Assembly: GCA_005405945.1 (NCBI GenBank)
Contig: BJHW01000002.1
Location: forward strand, 1,736,001 to 1,800,000
Direction of reading: 5' to 3'
Source of the DNA: Streptomyces violaceusniger
GTDB taxonomy: Bacteria; Actinomycetota; Actinomycetes; Streptomycetales; Streptomycetaceae
DNA: 64,000 bases
In this document: positions 4,461 through 45,225 of the stretch, piece after piece
How positions within the stretch are numbered: position 1 is the stretch's first letter
How the letters are laid out: each line of letters starts with the position of its first letter
Translations under genes and position numbers: made by a program
The notes under the pieces: generated by a model
The model's database searches: none
Seen by the model: the letters and a program-made list of their open reading frames with translations, nothing else
What the model was told of the DNA's origin: nothing

Positions 4461-4535
4461 ATGCCGATCTCTCCGCGGTTCACGCAGCGGCGCCCTGTCG
4501 ATCTGATGCGCATCGCCATCGCACTGTGTAGCTGA
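4461..4535 (+). CDS. Short Cys-ended leader peptide upstream of the sulfonate ABC operon
   Basis: A 24-codon ORF whose peptide ends QRRPVDLMRIAIALCS-stop, matching the VDLxR...C family. No ribosome-binding site precedes the ATG; the promoter spacing implies a leaderless transcript. The stop is 102 bp before the chosen start of the binding protein, room for an attenuator. A cysteine-responsive attenuation role is inferred from the terminal Cys codon and from the operon downstream. Confidence 0.8.
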   Translation: MPISPRFTQRRPVDLMRIAIALCS

Positions 4536-33354: not shown

Positions 33355-33429
33355 TCAGCTACAGGAGAGCGAGGTCACGCGCTTGAGGTCGACGTGACGT
33401 CGGGCGGTGAGCTGAACAATAGGACGCAC
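33355..33429 (-). CDS. Short Cys-ended leader peptide upstream of the LLM-OsmC-LLM-receptor operon
   Basis: A 24-codon ORF from GTG 33429, ending ARRHVDLKRVTSLSCS-stop. The start was chosen because it lies exactly 31 bases after TTGACA, as at the sister leaders; an earlier in-frame GTG (33438) would lie within the -10 region. It has no ribosome-binding site. One Ser codon separates Cys from the stop, as at 4461-4535. Confidence 0.78.
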   Translation of the reverse strand: MRPIVQLTARRHVDLKRVTSLSCS

Positions 33430-41569: not shown

Positions 41570-41641
41570 TCAACACTGGGCGCTGGACACGCGGAGGAGG
41601 TCGACACAACGCTCGCTCGTCAGGAGCAGGACCTCACCCAT
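41570..41641 (-). CDS. Short Cys-ended leader peptide upstream of ssuD
   Basis: A 23-codon ORF ending SERCVDLLRVSSAQC-stop: the final codon is Cys, and a second Cys precedes VDL. ATG 41641 is 30 bases after TTGACA. No ribosome-binding site. This is the canonical member of the family in this window. The 221 bp between its stop and ssuD hold no gene that I can recognise. Confidence 0.82.
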   Translation of the reverse strand: MGEVLLLTSERCVDLLRVSSAQC

Positions 41642-41677: not shown

Positions 41678-41776
41678 TGAGCCTCCTGCGGCCCCGGCCC
41701 GACGTCGCCGGACGCGATCAGGACGGCGGTGGCCCCGCGACGGTTTACCCGTCCGTTCATGTCCATGTGGCGGGCC

Positions 41777-41980
41777 TTCTCGATCGTCGGGGAGTCCGGC
41801 AGCGGGAAGTCGACGACGGCACGCATCCTCACCGGCCTCACACGGGCGACGGCGGGTCAGGTCTCGCTGCTCGGAACCGAGGTCGGCACCCTGGACACCA
41901 AGGCGTTTCGCCCATTGCGACGCGATGTCCAGATCGTCTTCCAGAATCCGTATGCCTCCTTCGATCCGCGCTTCGACGTC
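41777..41980 (+). pseudogene. Fragment of a dipeptide-type ABC ATPase
   Basis: A 68-codon remnant reading FSIVGESGSGKSTTARILTG ... DVQIVFQNPYASFDPRFDV. Walker A and the Q-loop are intact, but the sequence before the P-loop and everything after the Q-loop are missing. It runs directly into unrelated sequence at about 41981. It is distinct in sequence from the intact fused ATPase at 23646-25328. Confidence 0.8.
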
Positions 41981-41997
41981 CGGCACACCCCGGACCA

Positions 41998-42120
41998 TGA
42001 GGTCCGCGCGGCCGGCGCCACCGCGGCCGTCGCCCAGGCGCAGTACCTCGCCATCGAGTCGGCTCTCAAGTCGGGGGAGCCGCTCTTCGACGTGGGCGGA
42101 GGCTCCGCGACCGACCGGGC
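41998..42120 (+). pseudogene. Fragment of an SfnB/DszC-like flavoprotein
   Basis: In the same open frame as the ABC fragment lies AQYLAIESALKSGEPLFDVGGGSATDRA. FDVGGGSATD matches the C-terminal region of the intact gene at 9929-11143 (YDVGGASATR). About 40 codons remain. It is joined without a gap to the ABC fragment before it and the reductase fragment after it. Confidence 0.55.
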
Positions 42121-42672
42121 ACGGTGCTGAGGAGGGACCTCGACCCCTACCGGGACGAGCTGATCCTGTCGACCAAGGCCGGCAATCCGATCGGCCCGAG
42201 CTCCTACCACAAGGGGGGCTCGCGGAAGTCGCTGCTGACCTCGCTCGACCACAGCCTGCGTGACCTCGGCACCGATTACGTCGACATCTTCTACAGCCAC
42301 AGCCCCGACCCCGCCACTCCGCTGGAGGAGACGGTCGGCGCGCTGGTCACCGCAGTCCGGTCCGGGAAGGCCCTGTACGCCGGAATCTCCAACTACACCC
42401 CGGAGCGCGTCCATGAGGCGGCCGAGTCGCTCCGCCGGGCGGGGGTTCCCCTGCTGGTGCACCAGCCGCGGTACTCGATCTTCGATCGCCGCCCGGAAAA
42501 CAACGGTCCGCTCAAGCTCGCCGCCGAGGACGGCTTCGGCCTCGTCGTCTACAGCCCGCTGGCCCAGGGACTGCTGACCAACAAGTACCTCGATGGCACG
42601 ATCCCCCCAAACGCCCGAGCCCAGAACAGCGCCTTCCTGCCGGCCGACCCCGGGGTCTGGGGGCGAAGCCCC
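42121..42672 (+). pseudogene. Aldo/keto reductase fragment lacking both ends
   Basis: About 180 codons: LRRDLDPYRDELILSTKAGN, SLDHSLRDLGTDYVDIFYSH, SGKALYAGISNYTPERVHEA, VVYSPLAQGLLTNKYLDGTIP. The YghZ-type AKR is recognised. The catalytic Lys (STKAG) and His (YSHSPD) remain, but the Asp and Tyr from the missing N-terminus and the C-terminal cofactor segment are lost. The 3' end runs into the dispersed repeat at 42652, which may mark the deletion joint. Confidence 0.8.
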
Positions 42673-42684
42673 TGGTAACGGGGA
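42652..42684. repeat. Partial copy of the dispersed palindromic repeat
   Basis: GGGGTCTGGGGGCGAAGCCC followed by CTGGTAACGGGG combines the two halves of the element seen at 8691-8722, in a rearranged order. The inner part forms a hairpin GGGGC-GAA-GCCCC. It ends the truncated aldo/keto reductase and precedes the thioredoxin gene stop, so it may also act as a terminator. Confidence 0.7.
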
Positions 42685-42726: not shown

Positions 42727-43176
42727 TCACGGTGGGGGAGTGGTGGCCCCGGTCGCTTCGCTGATGGCCGCCATCACCTCCGCGCGCCGGGGCTGCCCGG
42801 ATGCCCTGCCGACGACCCGGCCGGCTCGGTCGAGCACCAGCACGGTCGGCGTCCGCAGGATTCCCAGCCGCCTGACCAGCTCGAGCCGGTCCTCCGCGTC
42901 GATCTCCACATGCGCCGTACCCGGCATCGTCGCGGCGATCTCCGCCAGCAACCGCCGTGTCGCCCGGCAGGGTTGGCAGAAGGCGGTGGAGAACTGGACC
43001 AGCGTGGCCCGGTTCCCCAACTCGGCCTTGAGCTCCGCCGCCGACAGGCGCACCGCGCCATCCCGCGGCCGCGCCCGGAGTCTTCCGCCGCGCGTCGCAC
43101 GCACGACTCCGAAGGCGCTCGCCAGAAGGAGCGCCGCGGCACACACCACCAACCCGGTCACGCCACCAGTCTGCAT
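42727..43176 (-). CDS. Membrane-anchored thioredoxin-fold protein
   Basis: 149 residues. One N-terminal membrane helix (VTGLVVCAAALLLASAFGVV), then a thioredoxin domain with the redox motif FCQPC, the cis-Pro region LRTPTVLVLDRAGRVVG, and LAEIAATMPGTAHVEIDAED. ATG 43176 was used; an in-frame GTG a few codons on is also possible. It probably works outside the membrane as a thiol-disulfide oxidoreductase. It is divergent from a leader-controlled DUF4395 gene, and the two families commonly occur together in actinobacteria. Confidence 0.85.
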   Translation of the reverse strand: MQTGGVTGLVVCAAALLLASAFGVVRATRGGRLRARPRDGAVRLSAAELKAELGNRATLVQFSTAFCQPCRATRRLLAEIAATMPGTAHVEIDAEDRLELVRRLGILRTPTVLVLDRAGRVVGRASGQPRRAEVMAAISEATGATTPPP

Positions 43177-43228
43177 CCACCGGGCCCTTTCCGGGCAACC
43201 GGCCATCGCCCCGTCGACACCGTTCCAC

Positions 43229-43234
43229 TAGCAT
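43229..43234 (+). promoter_or_regulatory. -10 hexamer for the leader at 43242
   Basis: TAGCAT lies 7 bases before ATG 43242, the same -10 to start distance as at the other leaders. No TTGAC-like box is found 17-18 bp upstream, so this promoter would depend on an activator or an extended element. Confidence 0.4.
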
Positions 43235-43241
43235 GACCGCC

Positions 43242-43322
43242 ATGGACTCCCCCCGTTCGCCGCGGCTGACCAGCCGCCGTGTGGTCGACCTCTGCCGGGC
43301 CACGGCCTCCCGCTGTCGCTGA
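43242..43322 (+). CDS. Short Cys-ended leader peptide upstream of the DUF4395 gene
   Basis: A 26-codon ORF ending SRRVVDLCRATASRCR-stop, with Cys in VDLCR and again in the penultimate position. ATG 43242 fits the leaderless spacing; ATG 43233 is in frame but overlaps the -10. The next start, at 43377, is 54 bp after the stop. Confidence 0.8.
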   Translation: MDSPRSPRLTSRRVVDLCRATASRCR

Positions 43323-43376
43323 CACCCGCACCGGTCATCGCCGTCCTCCCTCCTCCCTCCTCCCGGAGTCCTCGTC

Positions 43377-43787
43377 ATGCAGATCGACCCGCGCGGCCCG
43401 CGGTTCGCCGCCGTGCTCACCACACTCGTCCTGTCCGCGGTACTGATCACTGGCAGCGGTGCCCTGCTCGCCGTGCAGACCGTGGTGTTCGCGCTCGGTG
43501 CGTTCGCCGGCCTGCGGTACTCCCCGTACGGCTGGCTGTACCGAGTGGCCGTTCGGCCCAGGCTTTCTCCGCCCAGTGAGCTGGAGGATGCCCGGCCGCC
43601 CCGTTTCGCGCAGGGCGTCGGCCTCGGCTTCAGCCTGGTCGGCACCGTCGGCTACCTCACCGGCGTCCACTGGCTGGGCCTGGCCGCGGCCGCGCTCGCC
43701 CTCGCCGCGGCCTTCCTCAACGCGGCTTTCGGCTACTGCCTCGGTTGCGAGATGTACCTGCTCATCCGCCGCGTCCGAAGCGCCTGA
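43377..43787 (+). CDS. DUF4395 integral membrane protein
   Basis: 136 residues with four hydrophobic segments: an N-terminal pair, a cytoplasmic loop (RPRLSPPSELEDARPPRFAQ) and a C-terminal pair ending NAAFGYCLGCEMYLLIRR. The CLGC pair near the C-terminus is typical of DUF4395 and could form a redox-active disulfide. Its Cys-sensing leader and the divergent thioredoxin suggest a role in sulfur or thiol traffic across the membrane; no function is established. Confidence 0.85.
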   Translation: MQIDPRGPRFAAVLTTLVLSAVLITGSGALLAVQTVVFALGAFAGLRYSPYGWLYRVAVRPRLSPPSELEDARPPRFAQGVGLGFSLVGTVGYLTGVHWLGLAAAALALAAAFLNAAFGYCLGCEMYLLIRRVRSA

Positions 43788-43797
43788 CCACGCGTTC

Positions 43798-45225
43798 TCA
43801 CGTCGCCCGGCCCGCCGGTCCCGCGTCTCGGGCAGGGGGGATGTGGCCGGTGGTCTGCCGCAGGGCGTCGTGGGTGATGGTGCCGGACACGCGGCCGTCT
43901 ATGAGGACCCAGGCGGTGCCGGTGCCCGGGGCGAGCCGGGCGGCGGCCTCGTCGGCGGGTTCGCCGATGCCCACGGCCGGGGGCGAGGGGATGAGATGGT
44001 CACGGAGCGGGGCGGCGGACGCTGAGGGGTCCCCGGCCACCAGGGCGCGGAGCGCATCGGGCCGGACGGCGCCGATGACCTCGGACACATCGGTTGTCGC
44101 GTTGTCGCCGGAGCGGGGGAGACGCACCGGGGCGAGCGCTCCGGCGGTGGTGAGCGCGTCGGCCACGGTGGCCGTGGAGGGAAGGGCGGTGAGGGGGGCG
44201 GGGCGGTCGCCGAGGGCGTCGGCGACCGTCGGCGTTTCCGCGAGGTCCTCCAGGAAGCCGAAGCGCCGCAGCCAGTCGTCGTCGAAGTACTTCGACAGAT
44301 ATCCCCGGCCCGAGTCCGGGAGCAGGACCACCACCAGGTCGTCCGGGGTGAGGGTGGCGGCCACCCGCAGCGCCGCGGCCACCGCGGTGCCCGCCGAGCC
44401 GCCCGCGAGGATCCCCTCCTCGCGGGCCAGCCTGCGCACCATCGTGATCGACTCACGGTCTCCGATCCGCTCGAAGTGGTCCACCACGGACGGGTCGTAC
44501 GACTCCGGGTACTCGTCCTCCGCGGTCTGCGGGTGGAGGTAGTGGCCGATGCTCTCCACGTAGTACGGACTTCCGTCGCCGCCGGAGTATGTGGATGTCA
44601 GCGGATCGGCGCCGATGACGCGGACCTGGCCGCCGCTGGCCTCTTTGAGGAAGCCGCCGGTCCCGGTGACCGTTCCGCCCGTGCCGACGCCGACGACGAA
44701 GTGGGTGATCCGGCCGCCGGTCTCCGCCCAGATCTCGGGGCCGGTCGTGGCCCGGTGGGCCTGCGGATTGGCGGGGTTGTCGTACTGGTTGGCGTACCAG
44801 GCGCCAGGTGTCCGCGCCGCCAGGCGCGCGGCGACGTTGCGCACGTGTTCCGGATGCTCACGCGGGAGCGCCCCCGTGGTGACGACTACCTCGGCGCCGT
44901 ACGCCTTGAGCGTCTTGATCTTCTCGGGGCTCGTACGGTCCGGGACGACGACGATCGACCCGTAGCCCCGCTGAGCGGCGATCATGGCCAGCGCCATCCC
45001 GGTGTTGCCGGAGGTCCCCTCGACGATGACGCCGCCGGGCGCCAGTGCCCCGGACTTCTCCGCCGCCAGGACCATGCCCAGCGCCGCCCGGTCCTTGACG
45101 CTGCCGGCGGGGTTGAAGAACTCCACCTTGGCGTAGACGGGGGCGGGCACCCCGGAGGCGACCCTCGTGAGTCTGACCAGCGGGGTGTCGCCGACAGCGT
45201 CGAGCAGGGATTCGTGAAGAGTCAT
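43798..45225 (-). CDS. PLP-dependent cystathionine beta-synthase-like enzyme
   Basis: 475 residues. The catalytic domain (1-320) has the PLP lysine in NPAGSVKDRAA (Lys 44), the substrate loop EGTSGNTGMALA and phosphate-binding VGVGTGGTVTGTGG. Residues 325-465 are a degenerate CBS-domain pair (TVADALGDRPAPLTALPS ... VSGTITHDALRQTTG). This matches actinobacterial Cbs, which condenses serine with homocysteine (or uses cysteine to give H2S); O-acetylserine sulfhydrylase activity is an alternative. It is convergent with the DUF4395 gene (10-bp gap), so it shares the sulfur theme, but no short leader was found in front of it. Confidence 0.9.
   Translation of the reverse strand: MTLHESLLDAVGDTPLVRLTRVASGVPAPVYAKVEFFNPAGSVKDRAALGMVLAAEKSGALAPGGVIVEGTSGNTGMALAMIAAQRGYGSIVVVPDRTSPEKIKTLKAYGAEVVVTTGALPREHPEHVRNVAARLAARTPGAWYANQYDNPANPQAHRATTGPEIWAETGGRITHFVVGVGTGGTVTGTGGFLKEASGGQVRVIGADPLTSTYSGGDGSPYYVESIGHYLHPQTAEDEYPESYDPSVVDHFERIGDRESITMVRRLAREEGILAGGSAGTAVAAALRVAATLTPDDLVVVLLPDSGRGYLSKYFDDDWLRRFGFLEDLAETPTVADALGDRPAPLTALPSTATVADALTTAGALAPVRLPRSGDNATTDVSEVIGAVRPDALRALVAGDPSASAAPLRDHLIPSPPAVGIGEPADEAAARLAPGTGTAWVLIDGRVSGTITHDALRQTTGHIPPARDAGPAGRAT

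Follow-up and report, generated by a model that had tools for sequence, protein, structure and literature searches.

The locus described here lies in a 64-kb window (C2:1736001-1800000), the whole stretch of DNA analysed, which belongs to a genome of 11.7 Mb. It comprises a gene for a small membrane protein of the DUF4395 family, a short open reading frame (ORF) with cysteine codons ahead of it, a divergent thioredoxin-fold gene and a convergent gene for a PLP enzyme (Table 1). The initial annotation had placed DUF4395 behind a cysteine leader, next to a divergent membrane-anchored FCQPC thioredoxin, and had pointed to a C-terminal CLGC pair; all three features are borne out. The Cys codons of the leader stand 9 and 2 codons ahead of its stop, the encoded peptide ends in VVDLCRATASRCR, and 54 nt separate the leader stop from the DUF4395 start. 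DUF4395 matches PF14340 over the full profile (positions 1-130 of 130; 167.8 bits, cut-off 24.5), and its nearest named relative, from Streptomyces iranensis, is 95% identical. The thioredoxin-fold gene may start at 43176 or near it. The PLP enzyme scores 394.3 bits with TIGR01137, under the cut-off of 510.25, and a PLP-type match is also present downstream of DUF4395, on the opposite strand, at two other loci (L266 and L268). Its C-terminal extension is without a Pfam match at E<=0.001 and, by eye, may be a worn CBS-domain pair. Two further reading frames nearby are probably decayed genes: a short ORF resembling, by eye, a piece of an ABC ATPase (41729-42130, +) and an aldo-keto reductase whose match is limited to profile positions 60-212 of 291 (42124-42678, +).

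Table 1. Features of the DUF4395 locus (positions in the 64-kb window)
Feature	Position	Strand	Basis
Membrane-anchored thioredoxin-fold protein, FCQPC (Cys77, Cys80), divergent	42727-43206	-	PF00085, 31.7 bits
Candidate -10 box TAGCAT of a leaderless transcript from ATG 43242	43229-43234	+	Direct reading; spacing in relatives
Leader ORF, MTAMDSPRSPRLTSRRVVDLCRATASRCR, then stop	43233-43322	+	ORF reading; conservation
Leader Cys codon 1 (TGC)	43293-43295	+	Cys here in 81/113 distinct leader cores
Leader Cys codon 2 (TGT), last but one before the stop	43314-43316	+	Cys here in 112/113 distinct cores
GGAG, Shine-Dalgarno of DUF4395	43365-43368	+	Read from sequence
DUF4395 (PF14340) membrane protein, 136 aa	43377-43787	+	PF14340, 1.8e-49
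CLGC, residues 121-124	43737-43748	+	Alignment of 65 homologues
PLP enzyme, cysteine synthase / cystathionine beta-synthase type, convergent	43798-45225	-	PF00291, 1.1e-75

The true start of the leader is likely the second ATG, at 43242, which would leave 26 codons. This start is favoured because TAGCAT has the right position for the -10 box of such a leaderless transcript, and because the same arrangement (TANNAT, then 6-7 nt, then ATG/GTG-Asp) is present in most relatives with the same leader type, termed type A below. A sigma-70 pattern scan of positions 43150-43500 returned no promoter, and no Rfam family reached its gathering score in the window. With the two NCBIfam leader models the leader scores 20.6 bits (NF042933, cut-off 45) and 17.9 bits (NF042934, cut-off 27). 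Since it stays under both cut-offs, its identity had to be judged by conservation. The low scores are also what speaks for regarding the leader as an open frame that arose by chance in GC-rich DNA, a reading that we find very improbable: its position and promoter spacing are conserved both in its closest relatives and across many families, and a near-identical leader precedes DUF4395 in its neighbours in the protein tree. The leader at this locus is thus more than a product of chance, and comparison of sequences makes it very likely that it is both real and linked to DUF4395.

The breadth of this conservation was assessed by running a regular expression for the leader core over the 450 nt upstream of DUF4395 at 218 loci, with the antisense strand as control. 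The expression was designed after leaders had been viewed and imposes the V-D-L-x-R part of the core. The initial annotation had staked its claim on the leader recurring ahead of DUF4395 in other genomes, and it does recur: in a sample that represents the best-scoring part of longer E-value lists, and is therefore tilted to closer relatives, the leader was found at 85 of 107 loci of the same class outside the genus of this genome, at 7 of 88 loci of the genus itself and at none of the 23 loci outside the class, with a single hit among the 218 antisense controls. By family, leaders were present at all loci of f91 (21/21), f90 (13/13), f77 (5/5) and f86 (4/4) and at many of f3 (15/18), f89 (6/7) and f97 (3/5). 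The expression found none in f7 (0/7), f8 (0/4) and f103 (0/2), and family f7 has kept the rhodanese and SseC genes despite this. Two of the three leader-less f3 loci (L053, L058) encode proteins just 35-37% identical to the query. Named relatives carry the regex leader in 48 of 80 cases, among them Actinomadura, Nocardiopsis, Planotetraspora, Herbidospora, Pseudonocardia, Kitasatospora and Streptacidiphilus, as well as one of three Amycolatopsis. The expression missed one leader that was found by eye (L275, in addition to the 48) and gave a spurious second hit at L286, so that the 141 leader ORFs correspond to 140 loci.

Other properties of the leaders were examined as well. Among 113 distinct cores, 112 have a Cys six codons past the imposed Arg, and Arg occupies the third and the second residue ahead of the imposed part in 112 and 104, respectively. 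Third codon positions are more variable than second ones in all seven sets counted. Synonymous codon changes exceed other changes in five of these sets, and the reverse holds for the second Streptomycetaceae leader type, type B (36 vs 88), and for all loci pooled (23085 vs 34873). A TANNNT element lies 5-9 nt, mostly 6-7 nt, upstream of an in-frame start in 125 of the 141 leader ORFs, compared with 3 of 141 random start codons. This spacing suggests that the leaders probably sit on leaderless mRNAs and have a promoter of their own.

A leader of this kind is not new in itself. The closest known case is Ms5788A of Mycobacterium smegmatis (NF042933), which resembles the leader described here in being a short ORF, putatively leaderless, whose Cys codons lie close to the stop, and in having the core RRxVDLCR. 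At our locus the Cys codons near the stop lie directly upstream of a gene whose sulfur context is known from comparison, and the -10 spacing is compatible with leaderless translation. The two differ in that Ms5788A has a poly-Cys run instead of two Cys, and in that related loci place the leader ahead of a DUF4395-rhodanese-SseC series, whereas here no rhodanese follows DUF4395. Single leaders of f3 (54.9 bits), f90 (49.1) and Actinomadura (47.9) pass the Ms5788A cut-off of 45 bits; the f91 leader tested, at 19.9 bits, stays under it. The cis_reg_atten leader NF042934 is likewise sited ahead of sulfur genes and has in common the core R-x-V/I-D-L-x-R ... C.

The literature, as far as the sources consulted go, fits this picture. 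Cysteine leaders lacking terminators were predicted ahead of cys operons (Seliverstov 2005), and the Cys-rich small ORF upstream of cysA2/Msmeg_5788 in M. smegmatis is reported to be ribosome-occupied (Shell et al. 2015, PMC4633059). A 2026 paper citing Canestrari 2020 describes the M. smegmatis Cys-leader cases as translation attenuation. MSMEG_5788 is listed as an 'integral membrane protein', MSMEG_5789 as a putative thiosulfate sulfurtransferase and MSMEG_5790 as SseC (PMC5445863). The order of these three genes matches that of the f3 loci, with DUF4395 in the first slot, which suggests that MSMEG_5788 is a DUF4395 protein; from the same evidence f3 appears to be the mycobacterial family. 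If so, the gene directly behind an already studied Cys leader belongs to this family. In the portions of the literature that were searched, the term DUF4395 appears just in tables or lists, and a DUF4395 gene behind a leader is not named; Canestrari 2020, which lay outside the search, may describe the Ms5788 gene. What our results add is the link with DUF4395 across the class, its persistence after the operon was split, and the fact that the main Streptomyces clade lacks it.

DUF4395 itself is widespread: within the class at least 220 of 296 genomes have it (E<=1e-10), and within the phylum 129 of 396 (E<=0.001). Pfam assigns no function to PF14340. The member studied here, a full-length match with an invariant CxGC, is accompanied by a leader and a divergent thioredoxin. 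Outside the genus, the usual order in the class is thioredoxin, leader, DUF4395, rhodanese and SseC. Here the survey for thioredoxin and sulfurtransferase neighbours that the initial annotation had proposed gave a clear answer: among same-class loci outside the genus, a same-strand thioredoxin lies upstream of DUF4395 at 99 of 107, a rhodanese downstream at 88 of 105 (15 of 18 in f3) and SseC at 86 of 104. This gene order resembles the CysA2/CysA-type thiosulfate sulfurtransferase operon, and the M. tuberculosis CysA2 has been reported to be a sulfurtransferase with thiosulfate and 3-mercaptopyruvate as substrates. The arrangement usual elsewhere is not that of this genome, in which the rhodanese is encoded on another contig (C1:6390062-6390898). 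Within the genus, thioredoxin is divergent at 83 of 88 DUF4395 loci, and a rhodanese follows DUF4395 at none of the 88. Beyond the class, 2 of 23 loci encode DUF4395 fused to a C-terminal thioredoxin-like domain: L239, in which PF00085 scores 25.5 bits (cut-off 23.5), and L066, in which PF13098 scores 20.9 bits, under its cut-off of 27. Five more loci outside the class have a same-strand thioredoxin match; at four it lies downstream of DUF4395, and at the fifth it overlaps the DUF4395 start. A divergent DUF4395 subfamily (L053, L059, L063-L065 and, in part, L222-L233) has extra C-terminal cysteines of CExC type and no regex leader; many of its members start with VNExxAR.

Such an operon raises the question of which gene the leader serves. 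Rhodanese and SseC stand behind DUF4395 at most same-class loci outside the genus, and within the genus the rhodanese has a leader of its own, MKRQADLTKRRAVDLCRVAAMLCR or nearly so, at 30 of 30 loci, even in genomes that have no DUF4395 (G002-G006). One might therefore suppose that the leader is there for the rhodanese-SseC operon and that DUF4395 is merely first in line, without being a target that matters. The Streptomycetaceae make this unlikely. In this family DUF4395 lies outside the rhodanese-SseC operon, and yet two groups of loci, types A and B, have a leader ahead of DUF4395 with no rhodanese adjoining. A leader in this position suggests that control of DUF4395 was either kept or regained separately. 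In type B (L069, L079, L182, L277, L280, L286, L296, L311 and L315) thioredoxin is encoded downstream on the same strand, as it is at L219. The type B leaders are of a second type, exemplified by LVIRAHIDFGRVWSAACR; one of them has a weak match to the Ms4527A leader model (25.7 bits of 45).

In a tree of 136 proteins, the 96 Streptomycetaceae DUF4395 lacking a regex leader form one clade (100/96). Outside it fall type A (14 sequences), type B (9), L275 and 15 leader-bearing outgroups. One leaderless sequence of the genus (L219) has a long branch and groups with the outgroup. The simplest reading is a single loss of the leader in the main Streptomyces clade, but it is not firm, because the tree has few columns, an unsettled bootstrap and a midpoint root. 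The Streptomycetaceae may thus be viewed as a natural experiment, in which one gene occurs with a leader of ancestral type (A), with another leader type (B) or with none.

The leaderless loci bear on another alternative, namely that DUF4395 serves thioredoxin chiefly as a thiol-oxidation partner, in redox maintenance, and that its link with cysteine does no more than mirror thiol status. Thioredoxin is indeed the most constant neighbour, including the divergent arrangement typical of the genus, and the fusions with thioredoxin-like domains agree with this. In addition, a SigR-like element (GGAAT-N17-19-GYT) is present on the thioredoxin side of the intergenic region at 79 of 81 leaderless loci of the genus, which are relatives and so not independent counts, compared with 51 of 2640 random windows. 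The reported SigR consensus is GGAAT-N18-GTT (PMC2375139). The form with GTT (N17-19) occurs at just 4 of these non-independent 81 loci (2 of 2640 random windows), neither form occurs at any of the 15 type A loci, and the linkage with rhodanese and SseC speaks for sulfur transfer. The pattern is suggestive of thiol-stress control on the thioredoxin side in the leaderless loci, no more, and redox maintenance as the main task of DUF4395 seems to us the less probable choice. The region between the divergent thioredoxin and DUF4395 genes also contains AGC[AG]TTCA...GAATGCT elements at 51 of the 81 leaderless loci (11 of 1760 random windows); L025-L027 and L087 are examples of such leaderless loci.

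At the protein level, the CLGC pair stands out by its conservation: C121, G123 and C124 are invariant in 65 aligned homologues, together with P50, F77 and G82. The AlphaFold model, based on the same 65 homologues, is confident (pLDDT 97.8, pTM 0.88) and predicts helices at residues 6-25, 28-44 and 50-62 and again at 73-95, 98-118 and 122-135. The predicted fold is thus made up of two repeats, each with two transmembrane helices and one short helix, giving four transmembrane helices in total. Sequence support for the internal repeat is modest (probability 47%, pairwise E of 2e-4 over 22 columns). By the positive-inside rule both termini, the CxGC pair and the domain of the anchored thioredoxin would be cytoplasmic.

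A four-helix membrane protein built of two repeats might also act as a genuine transporter that takes up or releases thiosulfate, sulfide, thiocyanate or cysteine. A rhodanese adjoins it at most same-class loci outside the genus, the leader regulon described below includes transporters, and the rhodanese-linked membrane protein YgaP has been proposed to export thiocyanate (PMC4730233). The likeness to YgaP-like membrane rhodaneses (PF11127) is one of idea alone, that of a rhodanese working with a small transmembrane protein: YgaP-like proteins have two transmembrane helices, whereas DUF4395 has four, its rhodanese is on a separate gene, and the profiles show no similarity. We considered whether DUF4395 could be a split YgaP, with its transmembrane hairpin doubled, and rejected the idea, hhalign giving a probability of 0.7% against PF11127; PF11127 also gave no match in the genome, nor does it figure among the Pfam matches of DUF4395 at E<=10. 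A Foldseek search against solved structures gave no match at E<=0.001, which is no proof of a new fold, and the best hits of a VIA structure search (Z 8.7) were helical bundles and uninformative. With neither the YgaP transmembrane domain nor an informative solved structure matching, a transporter appears doubtful.

The initial annotation had also assigned DUF4395 to the same leader type as sulfur importers, and the rest of the genome agrees. A search with NF042934 returned 23 matches at E<=10, 8 of them above the cut-off (150 of 441 candidates scored). At E<=10 matches were obtained in 10 of 14 control genomes as well, and above the cut-off in none of the 14. From ORF shape and downstream gene we took 17 of these matches to be genuine leaders, which is our own assessment and not a statistic. 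Transport is represented behind them by an ABC permease, two solute-binding proteins and an SDF-family symporter. The other Pfam types are ThiS, cysteine dioxygenase, sulfite reductase, flavin reductase, rhodanese, an FAD oxidase, a GST-like protein, five luciferase-like monooxygenases and DUF4395. The least convincing of the 17 (L012) precedes the GST-like protein and has its Cys far from the stop.

How would such a leader control DUF4395? Transcription would begin at the leader's own start codon, yielding a leaderless mRNA. With ample cysteine, the ribosome would complete the leader and DUF4395 translation would stay low; with cysteinyl-tRNA scarce, we infer that it would stall at the Cys codons of the leader and that refolding of the mRNA would then expose the DUF4395 start. 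Fold predictions agree with a plain sequestration switch in some families and not at the locus studied here. Pairing between the Shine-Dalgarno and the leader end is predicted (P>0.5) for 44 of 139 leaders, mainly in f91 (16/21), f90 (10/13), f81 (3/3) and f89 (3/6), and for none in f3 (0/14), f77 (0/5) or the genus itself (0/7); among named loci the count is 6 of 48. The duplex energy lies under z -1.5 of shuffled leader ends for 48 of the 139. At the locus itself the Shine-Dalgarno of DUF4395 is predicted to be paired (P 0.80), its pairing with the leader end having P 0.00. RNAalifold gave no convincing shared switch for types A and B, and a simple pattern scan of 43150-43500 found no terminator-like hairpin with a T run.

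Taken together, a conserved leader and neighbours that are as a rule sulfurtransferases and thioredoxins provide good contextual support for a role in sulfur or thiol metabolism, and it is likely that DUF4395 performs such work jointly with thioredoxin and rhodanese. The initial annotation had proposed movement or redox handling of a thiol across the membrane. The sulfur or thiol part of this proposal is upheld by context; movement across the membrane is not, given that the CxGC pair is probably cytoplasmic and that no solved transporter fold was matched. On balance we favour, as more probable than not, the reading that DUF4395 works at the membrane as a partner to rhodanese and thioredoxin, is controlled by the cysteine leader and handles sulfane sulfur or thiol redox. 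Its product would be a four-helix membrane protein presenting the CxGC pair at the cytoplasmic face. Its partners would be the membrane-anchored thioredoxin (FCxPC) together with the CysA-type rhodanese and SseC, with which DUF4395 would originally have shared an operon. In cysteine shortage its most likely job would be to hold or pass on sulfane sulfur, derived from thiosulfate or persulfide, at the membrane; alternatively, it might keep a sulfane-sulfur relay reduced there. A sulfane-sulfur relay in particular is a tentative suggestion. Equally tentative is a wider scheme, in which DUF4395 would be the missing membrane component of an actinobacterial CysA-SseC-thioredoxin system. Its cytoplasmic CxGC would relay sulfane sulfur between the membrane, the rhodanese and a dedicated anchored thioredoxin, cysteine shortage would switch the system on, and leader loss in the main Streptomyces clade would have given way to control of the thioredoxin partner of a thiol-stress type. 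In any case, the conserved cysteine leader, the thioredoxin-rhodanese-SseC operon and the thioredoxin-like fusions assign DUF4395 a specific position in sulfur metabolism, one that is open to testing.

Judged by its leaders and the genes behind them, the 64-kb window is a sulfur-scavenging island. Six of the 17 judged leaders of the 11.7 Mb genome fall inside it, at positions 4476, 16841, 33370-33411 (-), 35201, 41573-41623 (-) and 43263, and the genes behind them encode a solute-binding protein, an FAD oxidase, three luciferase-like monooxygenases and DUF4395.
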